A stretch of DNA of 48,372 nucleotides from Centipeda felix (GTDB lineage: Bacteria > Bacillota > Negativicutes > Selenomonadales > Selenomonadaceae), in NCBI RefSeq assembly GCF_900186465.1, contig NZ_LT891956.1:1-48372 (forward strand), in the 5' to 3' direction. Of this stretch, positions 6,363 through 40,827 are shown piece by piece; the first letter of the stretch is position 1; each line of letters opens with the position of its first letter. Made by a program: the position numbers and the translations under genes. The notes below the pieces were generated by a model, which saw nothing but the letters and a program-made list of their open reading frames with translations, searched no databases and was not told the DNA's origin.

Positions 6363-6520
6363 GGAAGTACTGATAAGTTCGGCACGACCATCTTGACGCA
6401 TCTTTTCGTCTGCTTGTCGTCGGCAAATTCTCCACATAGCCCTTGCTATGCGTCCGGTTTGCTGCCTCAATCGGACAAAAATCTACGCCGATCTGAGAGA
6501 CTGTTTTATCAGTGATTTCC
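6363..6520 (-). repeat. MITE-like repeat, copy A
   Basis: This ~158-bp element is flanked by imperfect terminal inverted repeats (GGAAGTACTGATAA and TTATCAGTGATTTCC). It contains an internal CATAGC/GCTATG hairpin and a GTCCG/CGGAC stem. It is the reverse complement of the copy at 34123-34283 and is related to 35701-35860. It has no coding capacity. It lies directly upstream of the ClpX-like gene, so it separates that gene from any older promoter. Confidence 0.85.
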
Positions 6521-9114: not shown

Positions 9115-9230
9115 CTGACCTGTCCAAGAAGCAAGTCCGTAGGACGAAGCTGATTGGGAAACAGGCCGTATGCGAAAACGTCCCAAGAACACGAGCGTTA
9201 GCGATGTGTGATTGGCTGACGTTGACCGCT
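9115..9230 (+). repeat. S element, copy 1 (~117-bp structured repeat)
   Basis: It runs from CTGACCTGTCC to GTTGACCGCT. It shares stems GACCTGT/ACAGG(T/C)C (imperfect here, ACAGGCC), GTCC-GTA-GGAC and CGTTAGC/GCTGACG with the copies at 39144-39260 and 40574-40689. It is inserted in the loop of a GC-rich palindrome (CCACCGCTT | CGCGGTCCCC). Confidence 0.85.
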
Positions 9231-9334
9231 CGCGGTCCCCCTCCCCCGTCACAGCGGAGGAGGCTTTAGCGAAATCACGGCATAGCAGCTTCCCCATTTG
9301 CGAGGGAGGCTAGGGAAGCTAAGGATATGCTTTC
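9231..9334. repeat. GC-rich palindromic repeat fragment downstream of nrdD
   Basis: CGCGGTCCCCCTCCCCCGTC...GGAGGAGGC is the half of a GC-rich hairpin repeat interrupted by S element copy 1. It abuts the 3' end of nrdD. No gene is seen. Confidence 0.6.
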
Positions 9335-17929: not shown

Positions 17930-20083
17930 ATGCAGGACGACGATTTCAGCATATTCTGGCGCAACGATACGCACGCGCAGGGGCTCTTCTATGACCTCCT
18001 CGCACGGTCGGAGCAGGCCGCCTACGACGATGACTTTCTCATGCAGCTCGCCGCGTATCGTAAGGCAGAGCCCACGAGTGAGCGCGCCGATATCTTTGCG
18101 GCGAAGTATCTGCTCCATCACGGTGATATAGAAAACGCCGCCGTATGCGCAGAACGTGCCCGCGAAAAACGTCCACTCAACTACGAGATCTGGAAGATCC
18201 TCGCCGTCGCCTACAAAGCCCTCCACCGCGAGATGGACTCTATCGATATGCAGGGACTTTCCTACGGGCTCTACCGAGCGCCGAAACTTGCACTGAACTT
18301 GACCCCGTCCAATCTGCAGGAGGGACTGGGGCGCCTCACCATTGCACTGGGACATTGTCCGAATGCACCAACAGCAGAAAGCCGTGCCTATGTGGAAAAC
18401 GGCGCACTCTGTTTTTGCCATGATGTCTTTCTCGGTGAGGAGCTCCCGCTCACCATGCCCGCCGGCAGTGCACGGTTTTGGAGTGCGGTCTATACGGAGA
18501 ATGCCTTTCTGTCAGACCACAGCCGCCTGATGGAGGATCTGCGCCATCAGGAGTCATTCATCGGCTACGGACACCGCGATTTCCTCTTTGACCTGCAGAA
18601 GGCGACAGAGGTGCGCGGAACGGCAAAGATCGAGCTCCCTCCGGGAGAGGAGGCGATCATCCCCATCGCAGGGACAGCCATCAACCAGCCGCTCGCCGTA
18701 ACGACGGAGTCCCTCGGGACAAAGGAGGCCTATCTCGGCAAATGGGCATTCAGCTTCTTCCGTTTCAGTGAGAGTGCCACACTGCACGCCTCCGCGGATG
18801 CGCCCTATGCCGTTGGAACACCGATCCGCCTCGGTCACAGCCCGCAGCGGAGAAAGCTCGTCCTGAACCTCTTCGTCGATGGACTGTCCTGGGCGGTTGC
18901 ACGCCCCTATGCAGCGACGCATCTGCCGAATGTCATGCGTTTCTTTTCACGCGGAGTCATCTTCGATCAACATTTTTCGACCTCGGAGTACACCCTGCCG
19001 GCGCATCCTGCTATTGAGACGGGATACTATCCGCATCATACGCAGATCTTCAACGAGAAGGCAGGCTATGAGCTCCCGCTCCACATGACGACAATATCCG
19101 AGCAGATGAAGGAACAGGGCTACTACTGTGCTGCACCGCTCGCATGCACAAACGGTATTTCTCACGGCATACTGCGCGGATTTGATCGGCTGATCGCCAG
19201 CGGTTGGACACTAAACTCTGTTAACGCCGTGGACTCGGCCATTCGTCATCTCAAGGCGTTCGACGAGACCGATCTGTTCCTCTTTCTGCTCGCCAATGAC
19301 GTACATCCATACGACGCTCTTGATTTCAAGTTTGACACGGCGGTTGAGACGCACATGGCTCTCTCAGAGCGCATCTTCAACCAAAAAGTGCCTGCTGCCG
19401 CGGTGCGCCTCCCAAGTCTATACATCCATCAGGAGCAATATCTGGAGCGGATCAGGCAGGTTGACCGCAATCTTGGGCAGCTGTTCTCCTATCTGGAGAC
19501 ACACTTCAGCGAGGACGAGTATCTCGTCAATCTGTACTCGGATCACGGGGTTTCCATTTTCAACAACAGCACTGCCGCGGTGGACGTCATCTCAGAGAAT
19601 TCTACCTGCGCCGCGTGGATGATGCGCGGTGCAGGTGTGCCTGAGGGACGCATCGTCCACGACCTCACGAGTATTGCAGACATCTATCCGACCCTGGGGC
19701 ACCTCTGCGGATTCCCCGTCAATGACGACATTGACGGCCGTCTCCCCGCCGTCTTCGGGGGTACAGTCCGCGACGCAGCATACAGCATGTCAATGTTCCC
19801 GGGGCAGACGTATAAGCTCGCCGTGCGAAACCACGGACACGTACTTCGTCTGGAGACGCGTGAAGTGCTCGACGAGGACGGCACGGTGGATTTCACCGAT
19901 GCACGTGTGGGGATCTACCCGCGCAGCCATGAGCTCGATGAGAACTATGCTGAGGATAGTGCGGATCTGCGGAAATTCTTCTACCCGCGTGCCCGTGACT
20001 TCGTCCGCGAGATCGCAAACAACGGGGAGTTCTGGCCCGCGATGCGTGATGCACGCCCCACGTGGTTCGGCGGACAGCGCTAA
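17930..20083 (+). CDS. P1: TPR-like + alkaline-phosphatase-superfamily protein, subfamily A
   Basis: First of seven tandem paralogues; 717 aa. The N-terminal ~110 residues are helical and TPR-like (DIFAAKYLLHHGDIENAAVC). A family-specific middle region covers ~115-310. The C-terminal part is an alkaline-phosphatase/NPP-like fold with Asp317 (FVDGLSW), a candidate nucleophile Thr355 (SEYTLP), Asp457 and His459 (NDVHPY), and Asp538-His539 (YSDHG). The tail REIANNGEFWPAM...WFGGQ defines subfamily A. There is no signal peptide or membrane helix. Given the AEP genes around it, I infer a cytoplasmic phosphonate (AEP) transferase or hydrolase; a sulfatase role is less likely because no formylglycine CxPxR motif is present. 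Confidence 0.78.
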   Translation: MQDDDFSIFWRNDTHAQGLFYDLLARSEQAAYDDDFLMQLAAYRKAEPTSERADIFAAKYLLHHGDIENAAVCAERAREKRPLNYEIWKILAVAYKALHREMDSIDMQGLSYGLYRAPKLALNLTPSNLQEGLGRLTIALGHCPNAPTAESRAYVENGALCFCHDVFLGEELPLTMPAGSARFWSAVYTENAFLSDHSRLMEDLRHQESFIGYGHRDFLFDLQKATEVRGTAKIELPPGEEAIIPIAGTAINQPLAVTTESLGTKEAYLGKWAFSFFRFSESATLHASADAPYAVGTPIRLGHSPQRRKLVLNLFVDGLSWAVARPYAATHLPNVMRFFSRGVIFDQHFSTSEYTLPAHPAIETGYYPHHTQIFNEKAGYELPLHMTTISEQMKEQGYYCAAPLACTNGISHGILRGFDRLIASGWTLNSVNAVDSAIRHLKAFDETDLFLFLLANDVHPYDALDFKFDTAVETHMALSERIFNQKVPAAAVRLPSLYIHQEQYLERIRQVDRNLGQLFSYLETHFSEDEYLVNLYSDHGVSIFNNSTAAVDVISENSTCAAWMMRGAGVPEGRIVHDLTSIADIYPTLGHLCGFPVNDDIDGRLPAVFGGTVRDAAYSMSMFPGQTYKLAVRNHGHVLRLETREVLDEDGTVDFTDARVGIYPRSHELDENYAEDSADLRKFFYPRARDFVREIANNGEFWPAMRDARPTWFGGQR

Positions 20084-20098
20084 AAGGAAAGAAATATT

Positions 20099-22204
20099 AT
20101 GAACGACGATTTCAGTATATTCTGGCGCAATAACGAGCAGGCTTCTGCGCTCTTTTCCGACCTCCTCGCACGTGCGGAGCAGGACGCCTACGACGACGAC
20201 TTTCTCATGCAGCTCGCCGCCTATCGGGAGGCAGGCGGGGATGCCGCACACGCCGACATCTTTGCCGCACAGTATCTTCTCGCGAATGGAGATGCAGAAA
20301 GCGCCGTCATCTGCGCGGAACGTGCCTTTCGCCTGCGCTCTGTCGAGCCTGCACTCTGGGCAGTGCTGCGCCGTGCATACACAGCGACGGAACGCTATAC
20401 GGATGCGCTTGTCATGCAGGCGTATACGGCGAAGCTGCTGGACCATCCGCTCACACTCCCGGCGGATATTCCGCGCAGCGCGCTGACCCCCGAGGTGCTC
20501 GATCGTCTGTCCGTTGCCATGGGAAAACCAAGCTATGCGCCGATGGCGCTCAGCCGTATGAGCTGGGAGGACGAAAAGGGGCTGTGCGCCACGGAAGGTG
20601 TTTTTGCCGGTGAGTTTATCCCCACGACGGGTGTACATCGTCCGCCCTACTACGTCGCCACATATACGGAGCAGGAACAGCAGGGCAACAAGGCATGGCT
20701 CCTGCAGACGATCCAGTCGGCAGAGGGTTTTTCCTTCAATGTCGGTGGGGAATTCGTCTACGACATCATACGCGCTAACCGTGCCCCCGGACGCGCCGAG
20801 ATTCACTGCACCGGAGAGAATGTTCTGCCCGTCATCGGCGTGACACCGTTCCAGCGGCTACACATCAAAACAAAAAGCCTTGCGCAGGATGCGCCGCTCA
20901 ATCCCGCGACACCCAACTTCTTCCGTCTGACCGAAGATGCCTCCCTTTCCTCTGACCGTAGTTTTCTCGTGGGCACGCCAATCTCCATTGAACACAGTCC
21001 AATGCGGCGTCCACTCGTACTGAACATCCTCGCCGATGCACTGCCGTGGGCGATCCTGCGGGAGCATTTCGCCGAGTGGATGCCGAATACAGCCCGCTTC
21101 TTCGCGCGGGGAACGATCTTCGATCAGCATTTTTCTGTATCGGAGTATACCTATCCCTCCCTGCCAACCATCGAGACCGGGATGTATCCGCATCATAACC
21201 AAATCTTCAATGATAAGATCGCTACGCCACTGTCCGCGGACATCAGTACCCTCTCTGAGCGGCTGCACGCCCTCGGCTATGCGACGGCAAATCTCATGGG
21301 CGACGGCATCGGCATCTACAACGGGGCAACACGCGGTCATGACCGTATCATCGTCTCAGGATACCGCACACTCGCCTACGAGGGCGTCGAGCGAGTCATT
21401 CGCCACCTCGAAGGACTACGCGATAGTGACCACTTCATCTTTCTCCACACGATGGATGCCCACTCGTGGCCATATCCGCTCTTCCAGATCACGTCGAGTG
21501 TGCAGGCACGACTTCCTCTCACAGAGCGTCTCTCGGGCGCAGAGGGCAGCGACCCGAGCCCCTATCTGCGCGCAACGCCGCTCAGTGCTGCGGCATGCGT
21601 CCAGGGCATCCGTGATCTCGACCGGGCTCTCGGCACACTCTTTTCCTATCTGGAGCAGCACTACACACCGGATGAGTACCTCATCAGCCTCTACTCCGAC
21701 CACGGCGTTCCCATATTCAGCAAGCACCACTACATCGTCAGTCCGGACATGACACACACTGCATGGATGATGCGCGGGGCAGGCGTTCCCGCGGGGATCA
21801 CGGTGAGCGAAATGACCAGCACGGTGGACATCTATCCGACACTCGCATACCTTCTCCATTTCCCTGTCGGAGAACATGTGGATGGCGTCCTGCCGCAGAT
21901 CTTTGGTGGCAGCGGACGTGAGATCGCGTTCAGCAACTCGCTCTACCCCGGACGTACCTACTGTCTGCGCGCACGTACGCGGGCGCATACATTTCACCTC
22001 GAGTCATCAGATGCTCTCCTGCCGAATGGGACGGTGGATCTCGCGCGTGCTGTCACAGCATGCTACCCGCGCGGCGAGGAGGGGATCGCGGGACGTGAAA
22101 TTGACGATCCAGCGCTTCGTTCCTTCTTCTACCCGCGCGTGCGGGATTTCCTAATGGGCATCGCAAGTAATGGGGAGGTATTCCCGCCGCCAAAGGAGGC
22201 ATGA
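20099..22204 (+). CDS. P2: TPR-like + alkaline-phosphatase-superfamily protein, subfamily B
   Basis: 701 aa, 15 nt after P1 with ribosome site AAAGGAAAG. It keeps the catalytic pattern (LADALPW, SEYTYP, MDAHSW, YSDHG). It differs from P1 in its N-terminal signature (EAGGDAAHADIFAAQYLLAN), in the middle region (GEFIPTTGVHRPPYYVATYT) and in the end (GIASNGEVFPPPKEA). These define subfamily B, shared with P4 and P7. A and B members alternate, so they may act as a pair or on two positions of one acceptor (inference). Confidence 0.78.
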   Translation: MNDDFSIFWRNNEQASALFSDLLARAEQDAYDDDFLMQLAAYREAGGDAAHADIFAAQYLLANGDAESAVICAERAFRLRSVEPALWAVLRRAYTATERYTDALVMQAYTAKLLDHPLTLPADIPRSALTPEVLDRLSVAMGKPSYAPMALSRMSWEDEKGLCATEGVFAGEFIPTTGVHRPPYYVATYTEQEQQGNKAWLLQTIQSAEGFSFNVGGEFVYDIIRANRAPGRAEIHCTGENVLPVIGVTPFQRLHIKTKSLAQDAPLNPATPNFFRLTEDASLSSDRSFLVGTPISIEHSPMRRPLVLNILADALPWAILREHFAEWMPNTARFFARGTIFDQHFSVSEYTYPSLPTIETGMYPHHNQIFNDKIATPLSADISTLSERLHALGYATANLMGDGIGIYNGATRGHDRIIVSGYRTLAYEGVERVIRHLEGLRDSDHFIFLHTMDAHSWPYPLFQITSSVQARLPLTERLSGAEGSDPSPYLRATPLSAAACVQGIRDLDRALGTLFSYLEQHYTPDEYLISLYSDHGVPIFSKHHYIVSPDMTHTAWMMRGAGVPAGITVSEMTSTVDIYPTLAYLLHFPVGEHVDGVLPQIFGGSGREIAFSNSLYPGRTYCLRARTRAHTFHLESSDALLPNGTVDLARAVTACYPRGEEGIAGREIDDPALRSFFYPRVRDFLMGIASNGEVFPPPKEA

Positions 22205-22205
22205 G

Positions 22206-24359
22206 ATGAACGACGATTTCAGCATATTCTGGTACAATGATGAGCACGCGCAGGAGCTCTTCTATGATCTCCTCGCACGATCAGAGCGTAATGCCTACGA
22301 CGACGATTTTCTCATGCAGCTCGCCGTCTATCGTGAGGCAGCACCCGCGAGTGAGCGCGCGGATATTTTTGCAGCGAAGTACCTGCTCCATCACGATGAT
22401 GCGGAAAACGCCGCCGTATGCGCAGAGCGTGCCCGCGCAAAGCGCCCGCTCAACGCCGAGATCTGGAAGCTCCTCGCCGCCGCCGATAAGGCCCTCGGCC
22501 GCGAAAGCGATGCGGCCGCTATGCAGGGCCATCTCTACGGCCTTTACGGCGCGCCGATGCCATCGCTGGATATGGAATCACCGTCGCTGACAGAGGCACT
22601 GGATCGGCTCTCCCTCGCCATGGGAACATGCCTCAATATACCGACTGCCACGAGCCGTGCCTACGTGGAAAACGGGGAGCTTTTATTTCGTCCCGATATA
22701 TTTGTCGGTGAGGCACTCCCCCTCACCATGCCGGAGGGAAGCGCATCCTTTTGGGGTGGGATCTACGCCGAGAATGCCTGTCTGTCGGATCAGAGTCATG
22801 TGCTGACCGATCTGCGGCATGAGCGTTCCTTCTGTCGTCATGGCTACCACGACTTCTTCTTCGATCTGCAAAAGGCGCAGGAGGTCCGCGGCACGGTGTC
22901 CATCCAGCTTCCGCCGAGGGAGGAGGCGATCATCCCCATCGCGGGCACGGCACCGGAGCAGCCGCTCGCCGTAACAACGGCATCCGACGGCACACAGGAA
23001 ACCTGTCTGGGCAAATGGTCGTTTAATTTCTTTCGCTTCAGTGAAAATGCCACCCTGCACGCGCCTGCGGACAGCCCCTATACCGTCGGCACGCCAATCC
23101 GCCTTGGGCACAGCCCGCGGCGCAGAAAGCTCGTCCTGAGCATCTTTGTCGATGCGCTGTCATGGGCCATCGCACGCCCCTATGCAGAGACACATCTGCC
23201 GAACATCATGCGTTTCTTCTCGCGCGGAACGATCTTTGATCAGCAGTTCTCGAGCTCTGAGTATACCCTGCCCGCCTACCCCGCCATCGAGACCGGATAC
23301 TATCCGCATCATACAAATATATTTAATCTGCGCGTCGGATACGAGCTGCCGCTCCGTATGCCGACCATCGCAGAGCGGATGAAAGGCCTCGGCTACCACT
23401 GCGCTGCCCCCATGGCGACGACACAGGGGATCGCACACGGTCTGCTGCGCGGGTTCGACCGTGTCATCGCCGCCGGATGGACGCTGCACACGGCGGTCGG
23501 TGTGGACTCCGTCCTCCGCCACATCGACGCGTTTGACGAGACCGATCAGTTCCTCTTCCTCTATCTGCTGGATGTGCATCCGTACAATGCACGCTGGTTC
23601 AAGTGCGATACGGCCGTTGAGGCACACCTGCCGCTTGCGGAACGGTTCTTCCCGCATGACTCAGATGTGGCGAGTGTCCGTCTGCCCAATCTCCGCATCT
23701 ATCAGGAGCAGTATCTGGAGCAGATGCGGCAGACGGATCGCACGCTCGGGCTGCTGTTCTCCTATCTGGAGCAGCATTTTAACGAGGATGAGTATCTCAT
23801 CAACCTGTATTCGGATCACGGGATTCCCATGTTCGGTGATACCATCGGCGGCAGCATCGACATCCTCAGCGAGCGCTCCACCAGTGCCACGTGGATGATG
23901 CGCGGTGCGGGCATCCCCGCGGGCACCGTTGTTCACGATCTCACGAGCACGGTGGACATCTATCCGACCCTAGGACATCTCTGCGGGTTCCCCGTCAATG
24001 ACGATATTGACGGCCGTCTCCCCGCCATCTTCGGCGGCACGCCGCGCGACGCGGTATACAGTGCATCGCAGTATCCCGGACAGACGTATAAGCTCGCCGT
24101 GCGCACCCACGATCATACGATGCGCGTTGAGACACAGGATCCCGTCGATGAGGACGGAACGGTGGACTTTATGATTACGCGCGCCGGTATCTATCCGCGC
24201 GGCCATGAGCTTGAGACAGGCTGCGCCGTCGATCAAGAGGATTTGAATGCGTTCTTCTATCCGCGTGCCCGTAACTTCGTCCGCGAGATCGCGAACAATG
24301 GGGAGTTCTGGCCCTCGATGCGCGCCGCACGACCGGAGTGGTTCGGTGGACAGCCCTAA
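22206..24359 (+). CDS. P3: alkaline-phosphatase-superfamily protein, subfamily A
   Basis: 717 aa, one base after the P2 stop, with AAAGGAGG inside the P2 3' end as its ribosome site. Closest by eye to P1 over the whole length (same HHDDAENAAVCAERARAKRPL block and same C-terminal WFGGQ tail). Catalytic motifs FVDALSW, SEYTLP, LDVHPY and YSDHG are intact. The one-base junction recurs between P4 and P5, as expected if an A-B gene pair was duplicated. Confidence 0.78.
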   Translation: MNDDFSIFWYNDEHAQELFYDLLARSERNAYDDDFLMQLAVYREAAPASERADIFAAKYLLHHDDAENAAVCAERARAKRPLNAEIWKLLAAADKALGRESDAAAMQGHLYGLYGAPMPSLDMESPSLTEALDRLSLAMGTCLNIPTATSRAYVENGELLFRPDIFVGEALPLTMPEGSASFWGGIYAENACLSDQSHVLTDLRHERSFCRHGYHDFFFDLQKAQEVRGTVSIQLPPREEAIIPIAGTAPEQPLAVTTASDGTQETCLGKWSFNFFRFSENATLHAPADSPYTVGTPIRLGHSPRRRKLVLSIFVDALSWAIARPYAETHLPNIMRFFSRGTIFDQQFSSSEYTLPAYPAIETGYYPHHTNIFNLRVGYELPLRMPTIAERMKGLGYHCAAPMATTQGIAHGLLRGFDRVIAAGWTLHTAVGVDSVLRHIDAFDETDQFLFLYLLDVHPYNARWFKCDTAVEAHLPLAERFFPHDSDVASVRLPNLRIYQEQYLEQMRQTDRTLGLLFSYLEQHFNEDEYLINLYSDHGIPMFGDTIGGSIDILSERSTSATWMMRGAGIPAGTVVHDLTSTVDIYPTLGHLCGFPVNDDIDGRLPAIFGGTPRDAVYSASQYPGQTYKLAVRTHDHTMRVETQDPVDEDGTVDFMITRAGIYPRGHELETGCAVDQEDLNAFFYPRARNFVREIANNGEFWPSMRAARPEWFGGQP

Positions 24360-24386
24360 AAAACGCAGCCGAAAAAGGAAAGAGAT

Positions 24387-26516
24387 ATGATGAGCGACGA
24401 TTTCAGCACATTCTGGCGCAACAACGAGCGGGCATCTGCGCTCTTTTATGATCTCCTCGCACGGTCGGAGCAGGACGCCTACGACGACGACTTTCTCGCA
24501 CAGCTCGCCGCGTACCGCGAGGCGGGCGGGGATGCGGCACACGCCGACATCTTCGCGGCGCAGTATCTTCTCGCGAATGGAGATGCAGAGAACGCCGTTA
24601 TCTGCGCGGAACGCTCCTTTCGTCTGCGCCCGCTCCAAGCGCCGATCTTCGAGGTGCTCGCGCGTGCCTGCAAGGCGCTCGGCCGCTATGCTGACGCGCT
24701 CCTCATGCAGGGCTACACCAACCGGCTCACCGATGTGCCAATCGCGGTGGATGACTATCCGCATGAATCGATCACACAGGAGGCACTTGACCGCCTGTCC
24801 GTCGTCCTGTCTCATCCTTCGTTCGTGCCGCTCGCCACACGCGCATCCTATGATCCAGAGTCGGGCATCACCACGACGGACGGGCTCTTTGCCGGCGAGT
24901 TTCTCCCCGCATCCGAAAATCACCACTGCGCCTACTATGTCGGTGTCCACGCGGAGCAAGGGCAGCAGGGCGATAAGGCATGGCAGCTGAAGAACGTCCG
25001 TGATGCGCAGGGCGTCGGTTACTTCGCCGCAGGCGACTTTGTCTTTGATCTGATGCGCGCGCAGCGTGCCCCCGGGGCAGCACATATCGAGCTTGCTCCC
25101 GGACAGGAGGTCGTCCTCCCCATCATCGGCACCGTGCTCCCCGCTATCGGCGTGTGCCAGCCACAGCAGATCCACGTGCATTCTGCATCGGTCGACGCGC
25201 CCGGCTGGCTGAACGTTGCCACACCCAATTTTTTTCGGCTTCGTGAGACGACTGACTTCTCCTCCGATCACGCATTTCTCGTCGGCACCCCGATCCAGAT
25301 CGGACATCATCCACGACGCCGCCGTCTGGTACTGAATATCCTCGTCGATGCGCTCCCCTGGGAGATCGTCGGCAGCTGCTTCGCAGAGATGATGCCGCAG
25401 ACGGCACGCTTTTTTGCGCGCGGGTTGATCTTCAATCAGCAATTCTCTGTCTCCGAGTACACCTATCCGTCGCTGGCGACCATCGAGACCGGGCTCTATC
25501 CACACCACAGCAAGATGTTCCACGACAAGATCCCCGTGGAGCTCTCCTCTAGCATCGCAACGATCTCGGAGCGTGCACGGGACCACGGCTATGCAACGGC
25601 ACAGCTGATGGGATTCGGCATGGGGCTGTACGACGGGTGCATGCGCGGCTATGATCGCCTCATCGCAGCAATGTACCGTACGCCTGCCTACGAGGGGACA
25701 GAGCGCATCATCCGCCATCTGGACGGCATGCCCGACGCAGATCACTTCATCTATTTTCACACGGCAGATGCCCACCCATGGCCTGCGCCGCTCTTTCAGC
25801 AGGTGACTGCAGTGCAGGCCTCGCTGCCGCTTGCCGCACGTATGACGGATGAGATTCACGCGCCGCATAGCCCCTATCTCCGTCCGAGCCCCATCAATCA
25901 GGCATCGTTCCGCTATGGGGTGCGCAGTACGGATCGGGCTCTTGGCACACTGTTTTCCTATCTGGAGGAACACTATGCGCCGGAGGAGTACCTCGTAAAC
26001 CTCTACTCCGACCACGGCGTCTCCATCTTCAGCCCAACGCCCTACATCGTGGACAGCCCGCTGACCCATACGGCATGGATGATGCGCGGCGCGGGCATTC
26101 CCGAAGGGGTTATCACCGAGGAATTGACCAGCACAGCAGACATCCATCCGACGATAGCGCATCTGCTGGATTTCCCCGGCGATGCCGATGTGGACGGCGT
26201 ACTCCCGCACGTATTGGGCGGCCCAGGACGGGATGTTTCATTCAGCAACTCCCTCTACCCCGGCAAACCGTACTTTCTCGCGGTCCGCTCGGCATCGCAT
26301 ACGCTCTGCCTTGAAACGAAGGAACCGGTCCACACCGACGGCACCGTCGATCTCGCACGGGCAAACGTCGCCATCTATCCGCGTGAGCACGAGCGGGAAA
26401 ATGGATATGAAATCGACGACCCTGCCCTGCGCGCATTCTTCTACCCGCGCGTACGGGATTTCCTAAAAGGCATTGCAGATAACGGAGAGATATTCCCGCC
26501 GCCGAAGGAGGCATGA
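24387..26516 (+). CDS. P4: alkaline-phosphatase-superfamily protein, subfamily B
   Basis: 709 aa (or 708 from the second ATG). Subfamily B by its EAGGDAAHADIFAAQYLLAN block, AGEFLPASENHHCAYY middle and PPPKEA end. Motifs LVDALPW, SEYTYP, ADAHPW and YSDHG are intact. The 27-nt P3-P4 spacer (ending AAAAAGGAAAGAGATATG) closely resembles the 27-nt P5-P6 spacer, further evidence of unit duplication. Confidence 0.78.
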   Translation: MMSDDFSTFWRNNERASALFYDLLARSEQDAYDDDFLAQLAAYREAGGDAAHADIFAAQYLLANGDAENAVICAERSFRLRPLQAPIFEVLARACKALGRYADALLMQGYTNRLTDVPIAVDDYPHESITQEALDRLSVVLSHPSFVPLATRASYDPESGITTTDGLFAGEFLPASENHHCAYYVGVHAEQGQQGDKAWQLKNVRDAQGVGYFAAGDFVFDLMRAQRAPGAAHIELAPGQEVVLPIIGTVLPAIGVCQPQQIHVHSASVDAPGWLNVATPNFFRLRETTDFSSDHAFLVGTPIQIGHHPRRRRLVLNILVDALPWEIVGSCFAEMMPQTARFFARGLIFNQQFSVSEYTYPSLATIETGLYPHHSKMFHDKIPVELSSSIATISERARDHGYATAQLMGFGMGLYDGCMRGYDRLIAAMYRTPAYEGTERIIRHLDGMPDADHFIYFHTADAHPWPAPLFQQVTAVQASLPLAARMTDEIHAPHSPYLRPSPINQASFRYGVRSTDRALGTLFSYLEEHYAPEEYLVNLYSDHGVSIFSPTPYIVDSPLTHTAWMMRGAGIPEGVITEELTSTADIHPTIAHLLDFPGDADVDGVLPHVLGGPGRDVSFSNSLYPGKPYFLAVRSASHTLCLETKEPVHTDGTVDLARANVAIYPREHERENGYEIDDPALRAFFYPRVRDFLKGIADNGEIFPPPKEA

Positions 26517-26517
26517 G

Positions 26518-28671
26518 ATGAGAGAAGACAACCGCGTATTCTGGCGCAACAACGAACAGGCCTCTGCGCTCTTTTATGGTCTCCTCGCACGCACGGAACA
26601 GGGCGCCTACGACGACGATTTTCTCATGCAGCTCGCCGCGTACCGCGAGGCAGCGCCCACGAGTGAGCGCGCGGATATCTTTGCGGCGAAGTATCTCCTC
26701 CATCACGGTGACGCGAAGAATGCGGCGGTCTGCGCGGAACGCGCCTACCGAAAGCGCCCCGTCAACCGCGAGGTCTGGCTTCTATTGGCCGAGGCATACA
26801 CGCAGCTGGATCGTCCCGTCGATGCGCTCACGATGTATGGATACGCCTATGGGCTCTATCTCTCCCCCGAGATTCCCACGGAGCTGCTCATGCGCGGCGG
26901 AACGGAAGGTCTTGACCGGCTCTCCATCGCCGCAGGCATCGGAACGGGGGTACCGACGACGCAGACGCGCGCCTGCCTTGCCGATCATGCACTGGAGTTT
27001 CAGCTCGACGCCTTCGTGGGAGAGTATCTCCCGCTCACGCCGCCCGCAGGAAACGCGCGCTACTGGGTCGCCGCCTATGTCGATAATGCGTTTCTCTCGG
27101 ATCAAAGCCAACTGCTCGAGGAGGTACGGCACAGCGGCGTCTTCGTCGATAAGATGCAGCGGGATTATCCGTTCTGCCTGCAAAAGGCGCAGGAGGTGCG
27201 CGGCCCTCTAACGATCGAGGTGCCGGAGGGGGCGGAGGTCATTCTCCCCATCGCAGGAACAGAGCCGCTGCAGGAGCTGACGATCACGACAGAAACCCAG
27301 CCGCCGGCATCCGCCTATCTCGGCAAATGGGCGTTCAGCCAGTTCCGCCTCGCGGAGACGACCGAGATCACCCCGGCCTCCGATGCCGTCTATGCCGTCG
27401 GCACGCCGATCCGCCTCGGGCACAGCCCCGTGCGGCGAAAGCTTGTGCTGAACATCCTCATCGACGGGCTCGCGTGGAATATCGCGCGCACGCGCTTTCC
27501 CGATGCGATGCCGAACATCGCGCGCTTTTTCGCGCGCGGCACGATCTTCGATCAGCATTTCTCCACATCGGAGTGCACCTATCCGTCCCTCCCCGTGATC
27601 GAGACGGGACGCTATCCGATCCATACGCAGGTGTTCAATGAGCGGGACAGTCACGAGATTCCGCTCGACATCAAGACCATCTCGGAGTGCATGACAGATC
27701 TCGGCTACTATGCCGCCGCTCCGGCAGGGGCAAGCGACAGCCTCTGCTGCGGTGCGCTGCGCGGCTACGATCAGATGAATGTGACGGCGTGGAAGCAGCC
27801 CTCGGCAGAGTGTGTTGACCGCACCATCATGCAGCTCGAAGCGTTCGACGAGACGGATCAATTCCTCTATCTGCATCTCTCCGACGTGCATCCGTGGAAT
27901 GCCAAGGGCCTTAAATTCCACCCTGCCGTAGAATCGCATCTGCCGCTCTCAGAGCGGCTGTTTGAGATCGATGAGCATATCGCCAGTGTGCGCCTGCCAC
28001 GGCTCAAGATCTATCAGGAGCAGTTCTGGCGGAGTCTTCGCCGCGTGGACCGCAATCTGGCGCAGCTGTTCACCTATATCGAGGAGCACTACGCGGAGGA
28101 GGAGTATCTCGTCAGCGTCTACTCCGACCACGGTAACTCGATCTTCAGCACGCCCGTGAACGGAGTGATGGACGTGATCGCCGAGAACTCAACGCGTGCC
28201 CTCTGGATGATGCGCGGGGCGGGTGTCCCTGCGGGACGCATCGTAAACGAGCTGACCAGCACGGCAGATCTCTATCCGACACTCGGTGCGCTCTGCGGCT
28301 TCCCCGTGGCAGAGGACATCGACGGCAATCTGCCGGCGGTCTTTGGCGGGAAAGAGCGTGACGCGGTATATAGCATGTCGATGTTCCCGGGACAGACCTA
28401 TAAGCTCGCCGTGCGCACCTACGACTACGCGCTGCGCCTTGAGACGCAGGACCCCGTCGATGAGGATGGTACAGTGGATTTCGCCGGTGCACGTGTGGGG
28501 ATCTATCCGCGCGCCCACGAGCTCGAGGAGGACTACGCCTTGGGCAGTGAGGAACTGCGCGCATTCTTCTACCCGCGTGCGCGCAGTATTGTCCGTGAGA
28601 TCGCGAACAACGGGGAGTTCTGGCCTGCCATGCGCGCCGCACGACCGGAGTGGTTTGGCGGACAGCCCTAA
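26518..28671 (+). CDS. P5: alkaline-phosphatase-superfamily protein, subfamily A
   Basis: 717 aa, one base after P4. Subfamily A by APTSERADIFAAKYLLHHGD and the REIANNGEFWPAM...WFGGQ end, but the N-terminus (MREDNRVFW) has diverged. Motifs: LIDGLAW, SECTYP (Tyr to Cys beside the candidate nucleophile Thr), SDVHPW and YSDHG. Its AERAYRKRP segment is shared with P6 rather than with P1/P3. Confidence 0.78.
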   Translation: MREDNRVFWRNNEQASALFYGLLARTEQGAYDDDFLMQLAAYREAAPTSERADIFAAKYLLHHGDAKNAAVCAERAYRKRPVNREVWLLLAEAYTQLDRPVDALTMYGYAYGLYLSPEIPTELLMRGGTEGLDRLSIAAGIGTGVPTTQTRACLADHALEFQLDAFVGEYLPLTPPAGNARYWVAAYVDNAFLSDQSQLLEEVRHSGVFVDKMQRDYPFCLQKAQEVRGPLTIEVPEGAEVILPIAGTEPLQELTITTETQPPASAYLGKWAFSQFRLAETTEITPASDAVYAVGTPIRLGHSPVRRKLVLNILIDGLAWNIARTRFPDAMPNIARFFARGTIFDQHFSTSECTYPSLPVIETGRYPIHTQVFNERDSHEIPLDIKTISECMTDLGYYAAAPAGASDSLCCGALRGYDQMNVTAWKQPSAECVDRTIMQLEAFDETDQFLYLHLSDVHPWNAKGLKFHPAVESHLPLSERLFEIDEHIASVRLPRLKIYQEQFWRSLRRVDRNLAQLFTYIEEHYAEEEYLVSVYSDHGNSIFSTPVNGVMDVIAENSTRALWMMRGAGVPAGRIVNELTSTADLYPTLGALCGFPVAEDIDGNLPAVFGGKERDAVYSMSMFPGQTYKLAVRTYDYALRLETQDPVDEDGTVDFAGARVGIYPRAHELEEDYALGSEELRAFFYPRARSIVREIANNGEFWPAMRAARPEWFGGQP

Positions 28672-28698
28672 AAAGAGCAGTCGAAAAAGGAAAACGAT

Positions 28699-30813
28699 AT
28701 GATAAGCGACGATTTCAGCGTATTCTGGCACAACAACGAGCGGGCTTCTGCGCTCTTTTACGATCTCCTCGCACGCGCGAAGCAGGACGCCTACGACGAC
28801 GACTTTCTCACGCAGCTCGCCGAGTATCGAGAGGCAGGCGGGGATGCAGTGCACGCCGATATCTTCGCGGCGCAGTATCTTCTCGCGAATGGAGATGCAG
28901 AGACCGCTGCCGTGTGCGGAGAACGCGCCTACCGCAAGCGCCCCCTAAATCCTGCTGTATGGAATGTACTGGCCTCGGCCGATGAGCAGCGTGGCGACGG
29001 CCTGAGCGCTGCGATTTTTAGAATCTATCTCCATCGTTTTACACATACGCCGCTCCCCGCTTCTCTGCCGCAGGGACTAAATGCGGCCGCCCTTGCCCGG
29101 CTCACACGCGCGATGAACGGTGCGCTAAACGCACCGCTGGCAAAGTCTCGTGCCATGTGCGATGGCGGTGTACTCGTATTTCGTCCCGATGTCTTTGTCG
29201 GAGAATACGTCCCGATCACCACGCCGGAGGGAAGTGCTAGCTATTGGTGCGGGACCTATGCCGACGGCGGTTTTCTCTCCGACCGCTCCTATATGATGGC
29301 AGACGCACGTTCAAAGGATTGGTTCCAGGACAATATCTGCCGCGATTTCCCATTTGATCTGCAAAAAGCGCAGGAAGTACACACGACGGTGAATATCGAC
29401 GTACCAGAGGGACGTGAGGTGCTCCTGCCCATCGCAGGAACAAAGCCGCTGCAGGAGCTCATCATCAGCACGCCCACCCACGCAGATCAGCTCGCCTATC
29501 TCGGTCAATGGTTCTACAGCTATATGCGTCTCTCCGCCCCTACGACGATCACCTGTGAGGAGCCCGCGCCATTCGCTGTGGGAACGCCGATCCTCCTCGG
29601 GCACAGCGCGCGGCGGCATAAACTCGTACTGAATATCCTCGTCGATGCGCTGCCATGGAATATCGTGCGTACGCATTTTTCCGAATGGATGCCGAATATC
29701 GCGCGATTTTTTTCCAAGGGCACGATTTTCGATGCACATTTCTCCACATCGGAGTACACGTACCCCGCACTCCCCGCAATCGAAACGGGACGATACGCCC
29801 ACCACACACAGCTTTTTCAGGCGGATGCCAGTCACGAGCTCTCACGCGCGTTCCTGACGCTGGGCGAATGCATGAAGGATCTCGGGTACTACACCGCCGC
29901 CCCCATACTGACGACAGACAGCATCTACAACGGAACCATGCGCGGCTACGACCGGCTGATTTCAACGGTATGGAATCAGCCCTCCGGCATCGGTGCAGAG
30001 CGAGCCATCCATCACATCGAGGCATTTGGCGAAGCGGATCTCTTCACCTTTCTCCATTTCTCTGATATCCACCCGTGGGATGCGATGGGGTTCAATTTCC
30101 ATACGGCGGTCGAGACGCATCTGCCGCTCGATCAGCGCCTCTTCGCTTGGGAGAAGGCGACGGCGAGCGTCCGCCTGCCGGATTTTGAGATCTACAAAGC
30201 GCAGTTCCGGGCAGGTCTGAGGGATGTTGACCGCAATATCGGTATGCTGCTTTCCTATATCGAAAATCACTACGAGGACGATGAATACATCGTCAGTCTC
30301 TACTCCGATCACGGCAGCTCTGTCTTCACCCCGCGCCGGGATGAGGATCCGCTCGACATCATCGGAGAGAACTCGACCATGGCGGCATGGATGATGCGCG
30401 GGGCGGGCGTGCCAAGAGGCGTGATCGCAAACGAGCTGACCAGTGCCGTCGATCTCTATCCAACCCTGGGGGCTCTTTGTCATTTTCCCGTCGCCTCTGA
30501 CATTGACGGAAATTTGCCCGCTGTCTTCGGCGGTACGGCACGCGACGCTGTATACTCTTTCTCCCTTTACCCAGGGCAGACGTTCAAGCTCGCTGCACGG
30601 ACAGCCACGCACGCGCTGCGGCTGGAAACAAAAGATGTCACGCAGCCGGACGGTACGGCGGATTTTGCGGAGGCATGCGTCGGGATCTATCCACGCGGGC
30701 ATGAGCTCGCGGCGGGCTGCTCCTTAGACAGCGCAGAACTGCAGGCGTTCTTCTACCCCCGCGCACGGGATTTTATCCGCGAGATCGCAAACAATGGGGA
30801 ACTCTTCATGTGA
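28699..30813 (+). CDS. P6: mosaic alkaline-phosphatase-superfamily protein (B-type N-terminus, A-type body)
   Basis: 704 aa. The first ~68 residues (SDDFSVFW...EAGGDAVHADIFAAQYLLANGDAE) are of subfamily B and nearly those of P4. The rest (GERAYRKRPLN, VGEYVPITTPEGSASYW, DLQKAQEV, REIANNGE) is subfamily A. The A-type tail is cut short, ending NNGELFM. Catalytic motifs LVDALPW, SEYTYP, SDIHPW and YSDHG are intact. The switch near nt 28900 suggests recombination between neighbours in the array. Confidence 0.78.
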   Translation: MISDDFSVFWHNNERASALFYDLLARAKQDAYDDDFLTQLAEYREAGGDAVHADIFAAQYLLANGDAETAAVCGERAYRKRPLNPAVWNVLASADEQRGDGLSAAIFRIYLHRFTHTPLPASLPQGLNAAALARLTRAMNGALNAPLAKSRAMCDGGVLVFRPDVFVGEYVPITTPEGSASYWCGTYADGGFLSDRSYMMADARSKDWFQDNICRDFPFDLQKAQEVHTTVNIDVPEGREVLLPIAGTKPLQELIISTPTHADQLAYLGQWFYSYMRLSAPTTITCEEPAPFAVGTPILLGHSARRHKLVLNILVDALPWNIVRTHFSEWMPNIARFFSKGTIFDAHFSTSEYTYPALPAIETGRYAHHTQLFQADASHELSRAFLTLGECMKDLGYYTAAPILTTDSIYNGTMRGYDRLISTVWNQPSGIGAERAIHHIEAFGEADLFTFLHFSDIHPWDAMGFNFHTAVETHLPLDQRLFAWEKATASVRLPDFEIYKAQFRAGLRDVDRNIGMLLSYIENHYEDDEYIVSLYSDHGSSVFTPRRDEDPLDIIGENSTMAAWMMRGAGVPRGVIANELTSAVDLYPTLGALCHFPVASDIDGNLPAVFGGTARDAVYSFSLYPGQTFKLAARTATHALRLETKDVTQPDGTADFAEACVGIYPRGHELAAGCSLDSAELQAFFYPRARDFIREIANNGELFM

Positions 30814-30833
30814 CTTCCACGAAAGGGATATGT

Positions 30834-32945
30834 ATGCCAAACGAGCTCACATCTTTCTGGCGCAACGATGAATATACGCAGGGGCTCTTTTACGGTCTCC
30901 TCGCACGCGCGGAGCAGGATGCCTACGACGACGACTTCCTCATGCAGCTCGCCGCGTACCGCGAGGCGGGCGGGGATGCGGCGCACGCCGATATCTTCGC
31001 GGCGCAGTATCTTCTCGCCAATGGGGATGCGGAGAATTCTGTCACCTGCGGGGAGCGCGCCTTTCGGATGCGTCCCGCCGAGCCTGCGGTCTGGTCTGTC
31101 CTCAGCCGTGCCTATCTGGAGGCAGGACGCCATGCAGATGCTCTCGTCATGCAGGGCTACGCACTGAACTTCTTTCACGTCCCGATCACTCTCGACCTCC
31201 CCGCCTCAGTGCTGACGCAGGAGACACTCGACCGTCTGTCCATCGCGGCCGGAAAGGCGAACTATGCCCCCTATGCGCTGAGCCGAATGCACTACTCGCC
31301 AGAGACGGGGCTGGAGGCAGAGTCCTCCGTGTTCTTTGCGGAGTTCCTGCCCGTCTCCCAGCACATCACGCCTGCGTACTATGTCGCTGCCTACGCAGAG
31401 CAGGAGGTGCTCGGAAACAAGCACTGGCTGATGAATGCCATGCGCAATACGCCTGGACTTGCCGAAAATGTCGGCGGGGATTTCACCTTTGACATCATGC
31501 GCGGTACGCGCGCGCCAAAGGAGGCAGCGATTCACGTTGTGCAGGGGACGGAGATCATTGTCCCCGTCATCGGCACAGCAGCAGGACAGATGCTCCGTGC
31601 GCAGACGACAGCGGTCAGCGACGTTGCACCGCTCAATCCCGATGCGCCGAACTATTTTCGGCTAAATGAAGACACGGCACTCTCATCGGAGGAGGACTTT
31701 ATCGTCGGCACACCGATTCATATCGGTCACAACCCTACGCGCCGAAAGCTCGTGCTGAACATTCTCCTCGATGCGCTCCCGTGGGAAGTGATGGAGGCTT
31801 CTTTCGCGGATGATATGCCACACACGTCGCATTTCTTTGCACGCGGCACGACATTTCACCAGCATTTTTCCGTTCACGAGTATACCTATCCCTCGCTTGC
31901 GACCATTGAGACGGGGATGTATCTGCAGCATACGGGGATATTCAGTGAGTGGCAGGCCATCGAGCTGCGTGAGGAGATCATCACCATCGCAGAGCGCGCA
32001 CGCAGCGCGGGATATGCGACGTCGAACCTCGTCGGCGATGCCATCGGAATATATAACGGTGTGACGCGCGGCTATGACCGCCTCGTCGTTACGCCCTATT
32101 GTACCTTCGCCCACGATGGGACGGAACGAACCATACGCTGTCTGGAGGGCTGCGGCGATGCAGATCACTTTATTTTTCTGCACCTGAACGATATCCATCC
32201 GTGGAACAGTGGACTTTTTCAGATTCCTGCTGCGGCACAGATGCGCCTCCCCCTCGTGGATCGTCTCCCTGAGGCCAAGGCACACGTCCCCAGTCCCTAT
32301 CTGCGTCCGAGCGGATTTTACCAAGCAGCGTTCCGGCAGTCCGTGCATAGCGCGGATCGTACGCTCGGCATGCTGTTCTCCTACATCGAGGAGCACTATG
32401 ACCCCGCTGATTATCTCGTGAGTCTTTACTCCGACCACGGAGTATCCATCTTTAGTCCGAACCCCTATATCGTCGATGCCCCGCTGACGCATGCCGCATG
32501 GATGATGCGCGGGGCGGGGGTGCCCGAGCACGCAGTCGTGGACGATCTGACCAGTGCCGTGGACATCTACCCGACGCTGTGTGCGCTCCTCGGGTTTCCC
32601 GTCGATGCCCCGGTGGACGGCATCCTCCCGCGTGTCTTCGGGGGAGCAGGACGGGAGATTGCATTCAGCAACTCCATCTTCCCTCGTAAGGAATACTTTC
32701 TCGCGGCGCGCAGCAGGGACTACACCCTCTGTCTGGAAACACCGAATGTCGCCTCCGTCAGTGGGACAATCGACCTGCAGTATGCCAAGGCGGAGATCTA
32801 CCCCCGTGCACACGAGAAAGAGGCTGGATATGAAATCGACGATCCTGCCCTGCGCGCCTTCTTCTACCCGCGCGTGCGGGAGTTCCTAAAGGGCATCGCG
32901 AGCAACGGGGAGGCATTCCCGCCGCCGAAAGAATCAAACGCATGA
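30834..32945 (+). CDS. P7: alkaline-phosphatase-superfamily protein, subfamily B
   Basis: 703 aa from the ATG at 30834 (ribosome site AAAGGG); the open frame upstream overlaps P6 and lacks a ribosome site. Subfamily B over its whole length, ending PPPKESNA. Motifs LLDALPW, HEYTYP, NDIHPW and YSDHG are intact. It is the last member and is followed after 15 nt by the decarboxylase gene, so the whole array sits inside the AEP biosynthetic operon. Confidence 0.78.
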   Translation: MPNELTSFWRNDEYTQGLFYGLLARAEQDAYDDDFLMQLAAYREAGGDAAHADIFAAQYLLANGDAENSVTCGERAFRMRPAEPAVWSVLSRAYLEAGRHADALVMQGYALNFFHVPITLDLPASVLTQETLDRLSIAAGKANYAPYALSRMHYSPETGLEAESSVFFAEFLPVSQHITPAYYVAAYAEQEVLGNKHWLMNAMRNTPGLAENVGGDFTFDIMRGTRAPKEAAIHVVQGTEIIVPVIGTAAGQMLRAQTTAVSDVAPLNPDAPNYFRLNEDTALSSEEDFIVGTPIHIGHNPTRRKLVLNILLDALPWEVMEASFADDMPHTSHFFARGTTFHQHFSVHEYTYPSLATIETGMYLQHTGIFSEWQAIELREEIITIAERARSAGYATSNLVGDAIGIYNGVTRGYDRLVVTPYCTFAHDGTERTIRCLEGCGDADHFIFLHLNDIHPWNSGLFQIPAAAQMRLPLVDRLPEAKAHVPSPYLRPSGFYQAAFRQSVHSADRTLGMLFSYIEEHYDPADYLVSLYSDHGVSIFSPNPYIVDAPLTHAAWMMRGAGVPEHAVVDDLTSAVDIYPTLCALLGFPVDAPVDGILPRVFGGAGREIAFSNSIFPRKEYFLAARSRDYTLCLETPNVASVSGTIDLQYAKAEIYPRAHEKEAGYEIDDPALRAFFYPRVREFLKGIASNGEAFPPPKESNA

Positions 32946-34122: not shown

Positions 34123-34283
34123 GGAATCGCTGATAAAATGAGGTCTGCCATATTGACGTAGATTTTTTGTCCGATTGAGGCAGCAAGCCGGACGCATAGC
34201 AAAGGCTATGTGGAGGATTTGCTAACGAAAAGCGGGCGAAAAAGATGCGTTAAGATGGTAGCGCCGAATTTATCAGTGCTTCC
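34123..34283 (+). repeat. MITE-like repeat, copy B, with TTAA flanks
   Basis: A 161-bp element with terminal inverted repeats GGAATCGCTGATAAA and TTTATCAGTGCTTCC. It is bounded on both sides by TTAA (34119-34122 and 34284-34287), a likely target duplication. Internal hairpins are GTCCG/CGGAC and CATAGC/GCTATG. It is inserted against the T-tract of the operon terminator. The remaining 34288-34348 holds nothing recognisable. Confidence 0.85.
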
Positions 34284-35562: not shown

Positions 35563-35602
35563 CTTTTGTTTCACCGTAATCGCAGCCATGCAGTACTCCG
35601 TA

Positions 35603-35903
35603 GCAAACCCTAGTGGAGCGAGCGGAAGAGAGGGCACGTTCTGCCCCCCTGCGGATTTTAACCGTTTAAGCGAAGCGCGTTTGGAATCCGCAGGTATTGG
35701 GGAATCACGAACGCAATGATGCTGTTCAGATTGGTGCAGATTTTCCGTCCTATCAAGGAGATAAACCGGAAGCATAGCGGTGGCTATGCTGAGGATTTAT
35801 CGACACAGAGAGGGCGAAAAAGATGTGCCAAGATGGACAACTGAATGCGTCCGTGATTCCCTCGCAGATAAGTGCCCGACCGCTTGCGTAACGAGGGTTC
35901 TGC
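35603..35903 (+). repeat. R element, copy 2 (long palindrome), interrupted by MITE copy C
   Basis: It starts GCAAACCCTAGTGGAGCGAG and ends near GGGTTCTGC. The central stem CTGCGGATT (35649-35657) pairs with AATCCGCAG (35685-35693) around the family loop AAGCGAAGCGCGTTT (35668-35682). The right arm continues after the 160-bp MITE at 35701-35860. Without the insert it is ~141 bp, matching the other copies. Confidence 0.82.
35701..35860 (+). repeat. MITE-like repeat, copy C, nested in R2
   Basis: 160 bp with terminal inverted repeats GGAATCACGAACGCA and TGCGTCCGTGATTCC. It shares the inner GGGCGAAAAAGATG and AAGATGG strings and a GCATAGC/GCTATGC hairpin with copies A and B. The stem GTCCG/CGGAC of A and B is here TTCCG/CGGAA, a compensated change. 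Confidence 0.83.
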
Positions 35904-35979
35904 GAGGAGTAGCAGGGCACTCATACACGGATGCCGAGCGAGGTCCTCTCGCAGGGGAGGCTTCGTTTACGGCAGCAGT

Positions 35980-38031: not shown

Positions 38032-38149
38032 CTAAAATAAGTCCTTCGATATAATGCAGCGTCCATGCTGCGCGCTCTGTATCAAATAAGTGTGAAAATG
38101 AGGGTGAAAAATAATGGTATCTATTCCCACGCAGGCTGCGGTGACAGCA

Positions 38150-38285
38150 GCAAACCCTAGTGGAACGAGCGAGGAAAACGTGCGGTACACCCCGACGAAT
38201 TTCTTCGTCCAAGCGAAGCGCGTTTAGAAATTCGTCGGTATTTAAGTGTACAAGCACGTGATCGCTCGTGCAGCGAGGCGTTTGC
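38150..38285 (+). repeat. R element, copy 1 (intact long palindrome)
   Basis: A 136-bp uninterrupted copy. It folds as one long hairpin: GCAAAC/GTTTGC, CGAGCGA/TCGCTCG, ACGTGC/GCACGT, TACAC/GTGTA and GACGAATTTCT/AGAAATTCGTC around the loop AAGCGAAGCGCGTTT (38211-38225). It fills most of the gap between the LmeA-like and DUF5693 genes. No ORF is present. Confidence 0.85.
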
Positions 38286-38305
38286 GATGTTACCGCACCG
38301 AAGCC

Positions 38306-38980
38306 TTACTTTCCAGCCGTCAGCACCACCACGCCGTCCCGCGCCTCGACGCTCTCAAAGGCGAGCCCGAGAGGCAGACTGTTGGCACGCGCGACAAGAA
38401 TGTCGGGGAGGATGCTGTCGAGGCTCAGTGCATTCAGTCCGAGCCCGCGCGCGGAGATGCGGCGTGCCTTGTAGTAGAGATCGCCGTCCGCGACGCTGAA
38501 CGCGCCGTCGATGGTCACGTCAAACGTCTGCCCGAGCGCCTTCGTCTCTGCCGTTGCGAGCACCTTGCCGGGCTCCACCTTCACCTCGACGCCCTCGAAC
38601 TTGCCCGAGGAGCTGCCGATCAGCTCGCGCACGGCATCGGCATCGACGACGCCGCGCATCTGGACGCTGTCGGCGGAGGTGAGTTCCACCTTGTGCTCGC
38701 GCAGGAGGGTCATCATATCCACCTTGAGCCCCGTGCCGCTGACGGTCAGCTCACGCACGAAGAGCTTGCCGACGCGTCCCTGCCGCATGACGCCGTCGAC
38801 GGCACCGATCTCACCGAAGACGAGACGCGGGCTGTCCGTGATGGAGATCTGCACATCCTCCGCCGCCGTCTGCTGCTTCAGCGCATCGACGATGTGCTCC
38901 TCGACGACGGTCGGCAGGACGAATACCGCTCCCGCCGCAATCAGCGCGAGGATGAGAATGGCCGTGACTGCCTTCCACAT
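38306..38980 (-). CDS. LmeA-like (DUF2993) phospholipid-binding protein
   Basis: 224 aa from the ATG at 38980, which follows AGGAGGGTT; the open frame extends upstream through repeat DNA but without a ribosome site. An N-terminal signal/anchor helix (residues ~4-24) precedes a domain with the DUF2993 features: FVRELTVSGTGLKVDM, a Val/Ala-rich middle and a KARRISARGLGLNAL segment. Family members bind phospholipid-like molecules at the cell envelope. It is co-oriented with DUF5693 and csaB, fitting an envelope role. The ligand is unknown. Confidence 0.75.
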   Translation of the reverse strand: MWKAVTAILILALIAAGAVFVLPTVVEEHIVDALKQQTAAEDVQISITDSPRLVFGEIGAVDGVMRQGRVGKLFVRELTVSGTGLKVDMMTLLREHKVELTSADSVQMRGVVDADAVRELIGSSSGKFEGVEVKVEPGKVLATAETKALGQTFDVTIDGAFSVADGDLYYKARRISARGLGLNALSLDSILPDILVARANSLPLGLAFESVEARDGVVVLTAGK

Positions 38981-39001: not shown

Positions 39002-39283
39002 TCGCCTCCCCTGCCACAGCGGGGGAGGGGAACCGCGCAAGCGGTGGAAGGGGCACCTCAGACGACTGCAATGATGCGTCTGCATCGATGCAGATGTTCC
39101 TCAGGCACCGGCGCCCCTATCGGCACGCGAAGCGTGCCACATACTGACCTGTCCGAGAGGCAAGTCCATCGGACGCAGCCGATTCGGGTAATAGGTCGTA
39201 CGGGAAAACGTCCCAAGAGTATGAGCGATAGCGAAATACGATTGGTCGACGTTGACCGCTCCCCCATTGCGATGGGGGAAGCC
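39002..39283. repeat. GC-rich palindrome pair interrupted by S element copy 2
   Basis: Left unit (CCTCCCCTG...CGGGGGAGG with ACCGC/GCGGT) and right unit (GGCACGC/GCGTGCC, CCCCCATTGCGATGGGGG) mirror the pair at 14593-14752. The right unit is split exactly between GTGCCAC and CTCCCCC by the S element. No gene is seen in this 312-nt gap. Confidence 0.8.
39144..39260 (+). repeat. S element, copy 2
   Basis: ~117 bp, the most diverged copy. Stems are kept: GACCT/AGGTC outer stem, GTCC-ATC-GGAC, and GGGAAAACGTCCC. It ends GACGTTGACCG like the other two copies. Confidence 0.83.
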
Positions 39284-40510: not shown

Positions 40511-40543
40511 CGTATTCAGTAGAATGCGGCAGGATGCTCATAA

Positions 40544-40799
40544 GCAAACCCTAGCGGAGCAAGTGAGTAAATACTGACCTGTCCAAGAAGCAAGTCCGTA
40601 GGACGAAGCTGATTGGGAAACAGGTCGTATGGGAAAACGTCCCAAGAACACAAACGTCAGCGAAGTGTGATTGGATGACGTTGACCGCTCGGGCGACTCG
40701 CCCCCGGCGTACTTCTTTCGTTCAAGCGTAGCGCGTTTAAGAAGTGCGCCAGTATTTAGGCGAACGAGCACGCGATCACTTGCGCAACGAGGCGTTTGC
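40544..40799 (+). repeat. R element, copy 3, interrupted by S element copy 3
   Basis: It starts GCAAACCCTAGCGGAGCAAG and ends GCGTTTGC. The central stem GCGTACTTCTT (40707-40717) pairs with AAGAAGTGCGC (40739-40749) around loop AAGCGTAGCGCGTTT. Its left arm is split by the S element; without it the length is ~140 bp. Confidence 0.83.
40574..40689 (+). repeat. S element, copy 3, nested in R3
   Basis: 116 bp, nearly identical to copy 1. Stems: GACCTGT/ACAGGTC, GTCC-GTA-GGAC, GGGAAAACGTCCC and AACGTCA/TGACGTT. Confidence 0.87.
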
Positions 40800-40827
40800 G
40801 TTGAGCATCCGTCGCAAAGCCTAATAA

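Follow-up and report, generated by a model that had tools for sequence, protein, structure and literature searches.

A covarying long-hairpin repeat of Selenomonas and its relatives, probably a MITE-like mobile element with a conserved fold

Three R copies and the repeats that interrupt them

The window analyzed here, a 48,372-nt stretch of Centipeda felix (contig NZ_LT891956.1), carries three copies of a long palindromic repeat, R, which a preliminary description had presented as three palindromes with a common loop and central stems of entirely different, yet paired, sequence. We recovered the shared loop, AAGCG(A/T)AGCGCGTTT, at positions 35668, 38211, and 40724, always on the plus strand; allowing up to two mismatches, the motif has three matches in the window against 0.28 expected, a number that none of 100 shuffles reached. 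The three central stem pairs are likewise present, having been quoted with copy 2 first, then copy 1, then copy 3. As for the palindromes themselves, copy 2 is whole as described, whereas copies 1 and 3 are not single intact units, each being split by an insert.

Copy 1 (35602–35904) is divided by a 163-bp repeat, GGGAATCACG...CGTGATTCCC, annotated without strand at 35699–35861, with similar stretches at 34123–34283 and 6388–6496. The 5′ part of its core, containing the central stem and apical loop (35602–35698, plus strand), was delimited by the loop and stem match, a covariance-model hit, and the fold, and its 3′ part (35862–35904, plus strand) by the fold obtained without the insert (−90.4 kcal/mol). 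The complete core of copy 2 (38149–38286, plus strand) scores 139.2 bits against the covariance model and is bordered by plus-strand flanks holding the left arm of an outer stem (38127–38148, from the fold and outer-stem covariation) and its right arm (38287–38308, from the fold). Copy 3 (40543–40800) is divided by the 120-bp repeat S, annotated without strand at 40572–40691, with other copies at 9115–9232 (94%) and 39142–39261 (82%). The 5′ part of the core was placed by the fold at 40543–40571 (plus strand), and the remaining core with its apical loop, at 40692–40800 (plus strand), is a covariance-model hit that also folds.

The RNA fold of copy 2 (38149–38286) reaches −65.6 kcal/mol (z −7.0), equaled by none of 200 shuffles, while for the cut or interrupted stretches of copies 1 and 3 the z-scores are only −2.1 and −2.3. 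Once the inserts are removed, the whole-copy folds are −90.4 (copy 1) and −83.1 (copy 3) versus −87.5 kcal/mol (copy 2), and all three copies form one long hairpin, with the third stem shortened in copy 3. The stem described earlier is one level of this hairpin: additional nested stems lie outside it, and so does an outer stem, which varies from copy to copy. Elsewhere in the window (17930–32945), seven neighboring plus-strand ORFs of 701–732 aa, with repeated DNA between them, form a tandem array of paralogous genes.

Phyletic distribution of R

A covariance model built from 36 copies returned 20 hits in the genome of the window; seven further genomes of the genus each have between 19 and 63. 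With at most 17 candidates scored per genome, 12 of the 14 genomes examined in the genus, and 42 of the 189 in the family, contained R hits. A longer loop pattern matched 27 stretches in named genomes, every one labeled Selenomonas or Centipeda. Of 380 genomes of the class, 32 contain the exact 19-nt apical motif; every one of these belongs to the family (189 genomes), and the other 191 have none. The reversed control had no match in the same 380 genomes. No published description of R appeared among the literature matches listed. In the two genomes of the genus without R hits, we observed by eye that the prfB–secA intergene (L145 in G032; L146 in G024) contains different repeats of a comparable style (AACCTAAGTGACGCG...).

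Part of the fetched copies was chosen from score-ordered listings and is thus biased toward uninterrupted copies. Ten places with weak hits in genome G034 were read as well. In five of them (L311–L315), a repeat like that of copy 1 is inserted at the corresponding position, and two (L316 and L319) include the terminal part of an insert resembling S. L310 carries a short deletion, L317 has no loop match, and at L318 only its intact neighbor is shown. The low scores of these hits accordingly reflect mostly interruption and not decay.

Hairpin architecture and covariation

Across the family, an R copy is a single hairpin consisting of the outer stem and a 141-nt core, in which nested stems alternate with fixed internal and apical loops. 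The apical loop is GTTCAAGCGNAGCGCGTTT; the stem sequences vary while their arms stay matched. Covariation could not be proven from the three window copies alone, so family-wide copies were needed, and these show it. Among 14 copies from the genome of the window, 22 of 44 pairs have changed on both sides. The corresponding figures are 23 of 44 in 36 copies, 26 of 44 in 96 distinct copies of the genus, and 41 of 44 in 39 distinct copies of other genera, and in neither of the last two sets did any of 500 shuffles attain values as high, although alignments fitted to the R model lean toward the model's own pairs. In the copies from other genera, 93.9% of cells pair versus 59.4% after shuffling, and the covariation score is 0.748 versus 0.195 for shuffled alignments and 0.10–0.16 for slid partners; most stem letters have changed there, and what can still be recognized is the apical loop together with several motifs of the internal loops. 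The outer stem covaries too, though it lies outside the model, its third base pair being Watson–Crick in 89% of cases versus 42% after shuffling. The proposal that stem covariation reflects selection for structure is thus supported family-wide, both within the genus and between genera.

Mispairs and the probable folding strand

Mispairs in the stems bear on which strand is folded. Read on the loop strand, G–T and A–C mispairs in the modeled stems number 103:12 (76:12 once a single tied pair is set aside) and 127:35, and in the outer stem 60:20 over six positions. This excess is unevenly distributed: a single pair accounts for 44 of the 127, a single outer-stem position for 28 of the 60, and at the innermost position of the outer stem the ratio runs the other way (1:6). 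Counting without the model gave 165:94 for the loop strand and 30:180 for its complement. Folding energy is good for both strands; the G–T excess on the loop strand fits folding of that strand, as RNA or as single-stranded DNA. Covariation within and between genera, its extension to the unmodeled outer stem, and the preponderance of G–T over A–C on the loop strand together support the conclusion that R is selected as a folded single strand. Integron attC sites also fold as single-stranded DNA, with the stem sequence free to vary.

Relative to replication, the loop strand lies in the lagging sense in 76 cases versus 37 in the leading sense (genomes G034, G025, G036, G030, and G035), a post hoc count that took in 45 of the 63 hits of G025 and for which origins were set by eye from the GC skew of the fetched loci, after the data had been seen.

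Mobility and ISL3-type ends

The sites of the window copies are, in related genomes, empty, or occupied by the same copy, a different copy, or an inverted copy; that of copy 2 is an empty intergene of 15 bp in five genomes. In four pairs of occupied and empty sites, compared by eye in part, only the occupied site shows the outer-stem arms, which indicates that the outer stem arrives with R. As neither arm occurs in the empty site of these pairs, we rejected a pre-existing target hairpin or an inverted target copy as its source.

Many R copies in G034 and G028 have common ends such as GGCTCTTTGTCATATGTTACGG. For the count of ends and target duplications, 161 of 167 rows were kept after duplicates, N runs, and short flanks were dropped. 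Under a loose pattern, which found both ends in no shuffled set, at most 19 of these 161 copies carry both ISL3-type ends (two of them, L054 and L163, look spurious), and among these 19 we found six perfect 8-bp target duplications and three matching at 7 of 8 positions. ISL3 elements generate 8-bp target duplications. Neither end is present in 126 of the 161 copies, the three of the window among them. The preliminary description had suggested looking for an associated transposase or RAYT. Genes for ISL3 transposases do occur in G034, G028, and G030, and at two of 14 ISL3 loci the IS ends lie within two mismatches of the R end pattern; no ISL3 transposase gene was found in the genome of the window, and a link to RAYT was not supported.

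Inserts, possible segment exchange, and composite repeats

Repeat S (GACCTGTCC...GACGTTGACCGCTC) forms hairpins of its own and occurs alone or inside R. Within R it sits at a recurring place, namely in window copy 3, in L008, and in the I2 copies of G034 and G027. The repeat that splits copy 1 is a second small palindromic repeat, and by eye it interrupts R at this same place in G034 (L311–L315).

Stem types are only weakly linked between nesting levels, and by eye chimeric R copies are seen; nested segments have perhaps been exchanged between copies. In G025, copies whose cores are 3–5 nt apart have outer stems that are paired, yet as unlike as those of unrelated copies.

In other genera, two R hairpins in opposite orientation occur at 14 of 30 fetched loci (13 places). 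In G158 such doublets (L271, L278, L284, and L290) are composite repeats of about 660–710 bp, 92–96% alike, with opposed R hairpins near both ends and termini (AAATTGCAGTTT) other than the ISL3 type.

Constraint on the core and behavior at single sites

Nine mobile units of G034, drawn from a score-ordered listing with L220 excluded for its different core, show a mean pairwise difference of 1.1% for the 142-nt core and 31–32% for the spacers. The left end differs by 5%, the right end by 17% (0 once two units whose right ends have decayed are set aside), and the outer-stem arms by 6% and 18%. Only three core columns vary, all of them in loops. In spreading lineages, constraint on the core is hence no weaker than on the left end.

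From 164 of the 167 rows, kept by criteria other than those of the 161-copy set, we assembled 27 groups of copies that occupy one locus in several species. Their core identity is either at least 97% or at most 90%, and in some orthologous copies cores 98–100% identical stand between flanks of 77–91%. In the 11 ortholog groups that could be compared, which are small numbers, stem changes comprised five neutral (G–U), six breaking, one in a pair already broken, and none that compensated. The selection evident between lineages was therefore not seen at single sites.

With ORFs called by length only and 17 ORF-crossed copies left out, 130 copies lie between genes as follows: 37 in the same sense as codirectional genes, 32 opposite to them, 39 between convergent, and 22 between divergent genes. 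A fixed orientation to a gene, as for a gene-linked cis-regulatory RNA, was thus not found between codirectional genes.

Comparison with known repeats and RNA families

Searches against Rfam identified SSU rRNA as the only match above the gathering score in the window. For copy 2 at a lax threshold, the best match was mir-278 (25.2 bits versus 55 needed; E 0.0005), which we take as chance, and among the loci of other genera a tRNA lies beside R in L267, with nothing above threshold on R itself. As no Rfam family reaches threshold on R, we rejected a known RNA family. Beside two copies in G141, where we looked for a partner gene, the ORF translations gave only ordinary-looking neighbors.

R resembles ISL3-related MITEs in that some copies carry ends resembling those of ISL3 elements from the same genus, together with 8-bp target duplications; it differs from them in being filled by a conserved, covarying core that is shared between genera and is also present in copies without these ends. 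By description, not by sequence, R is also like BOX and RUP of Streptococcus pneumoniae, interspersed repeats that fold tightly, have paired terminal repeats and split copies, and are presumed to be non-autonomous mobile elements (PMC3049150): R too is folded, interspersed, and represented by split copies. Unlike what we describe for R, the words "compensatory" and "covaria" are absent from the main text of that report (PMC3049150). Members of the REP/BIME, GTAG, and CGTC families are palindromic, have GT pairs and alternative but complementary residues in their stems, and also occur as dimers (PMC3733652, PMC8266576); R shares with them its palindromic form, alternative complementary stems, GT pairs, and doublets. 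REPs are 20–40 bp long, carry a tag tetranucleotide, and have a Y1 partner (PMC3733652, PMC8266576), whereas R is longer, and no Y1 partner was found in the genomes searched.

Candidate explanations for the conserved fold

Taken together, R has a covarying fold, some of its copies are mobile, and in mobile units its core is conserved at least as well as the left ends. We consider it somewhat better than an even bet that R, in Selenomonas and related bacteria, is a MITE-like element, mobile but not autonomous, whose core fold is kept for its own spread. The loop strand would fold when single-stranded, either as single-stranded DNA at replication or as RNA, and its loops would be read by a trans-acting factor of these bacteria; the core would then be kept because the fold helps the element to spread or survive. 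In spreading lineages the stems may drift by compensatory change, and nested segments may also have passed from one copy to another; such a history would account for stems that appear fully exchanged. The near-equal orientations between codirectional genes (37 vs 32) indicate that R is not tied to genes. We count against this explanation that most copies are without ISL3-type ends and that the genome of the window has no ISL3 gene, as well as the unevenness of the G–T excess and a model-free count of only 165:94. The unrelated outer stems beside near-identical cores are left unexplained by it.

A less probable but still plausible account is that the R core is a transmissible structured nucleic-acid module of this family, carried by small mobile elements of several kinds because a factor of these bacteria reads its folded loop strand (as single-stranded DNA or RNA). 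The carriers would be units with ISL3-type ends in one genus and inverted doublets with other ends elsewhere.

We regard it as unlikely that R is a host-serving RNA, such as an untranslated-region element, a small RNA, or an RNase substrate, which spread and was then kept for the benefit of the transcript to the host. The RNA-like covariation, the G–U excess on one strand, and the orthologous cores that are better preserved than their flanks (98–100% versus 77–91%) speak for such an RNA; however, R shows no orientation preference between codirectional genes (37 vs 32), its copies are gained, lost, broken, and inverted among related species, two of 14 genomes of the genus are without an R hit, and orthologs show no compensatory change.

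More doubtful still is that mutation alone upholds the pairing, with arms corrected through template switching and cores homogenized by gene conversion, so that the fold has no function. Such a process could change both arms together, and the weak linkage of stem types between levels, the chimeric copies, and the unique yet paired outer stems beside near-identical cores all speak for it. Arm correction, however, leaves unexplained why loops are fixed across genera. The mispairs are also unequal between strands, and core variation in the mobile units is limited to three loop columns, which gene conversion should have evened out as well.

A REP/BIME-like element moved by a RAYT (Y1) transposase is very improbable and was rejected: R is palindromic and intergenic, forms opposed hairpin pairs at 14 of 30 fetched loci (13 places) in other genera, and has its loop strand more often in the lagging sense (76 vs 37), but five of eight R-bearing genomes have no Y1 match, none of 15 Y1 loci (match plus 1.5 kb on each side) has an R hit, mobile copies carry 8-bp target duplications, and R measures about 140–240 nt.

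Implications for mobile repeats

The interior of a MITE is usually taken to be dispensable filler; that of R is as conserved as its ends and covaries across genera. R is therefore a natural setting in which to ask whether such a repeat depends on the folding of one strand, and what recognizes the folded form. Since a given site can be intact in one species and interrupted, deleted, or empty in a related one, effects on genes or replication can be compared among them.
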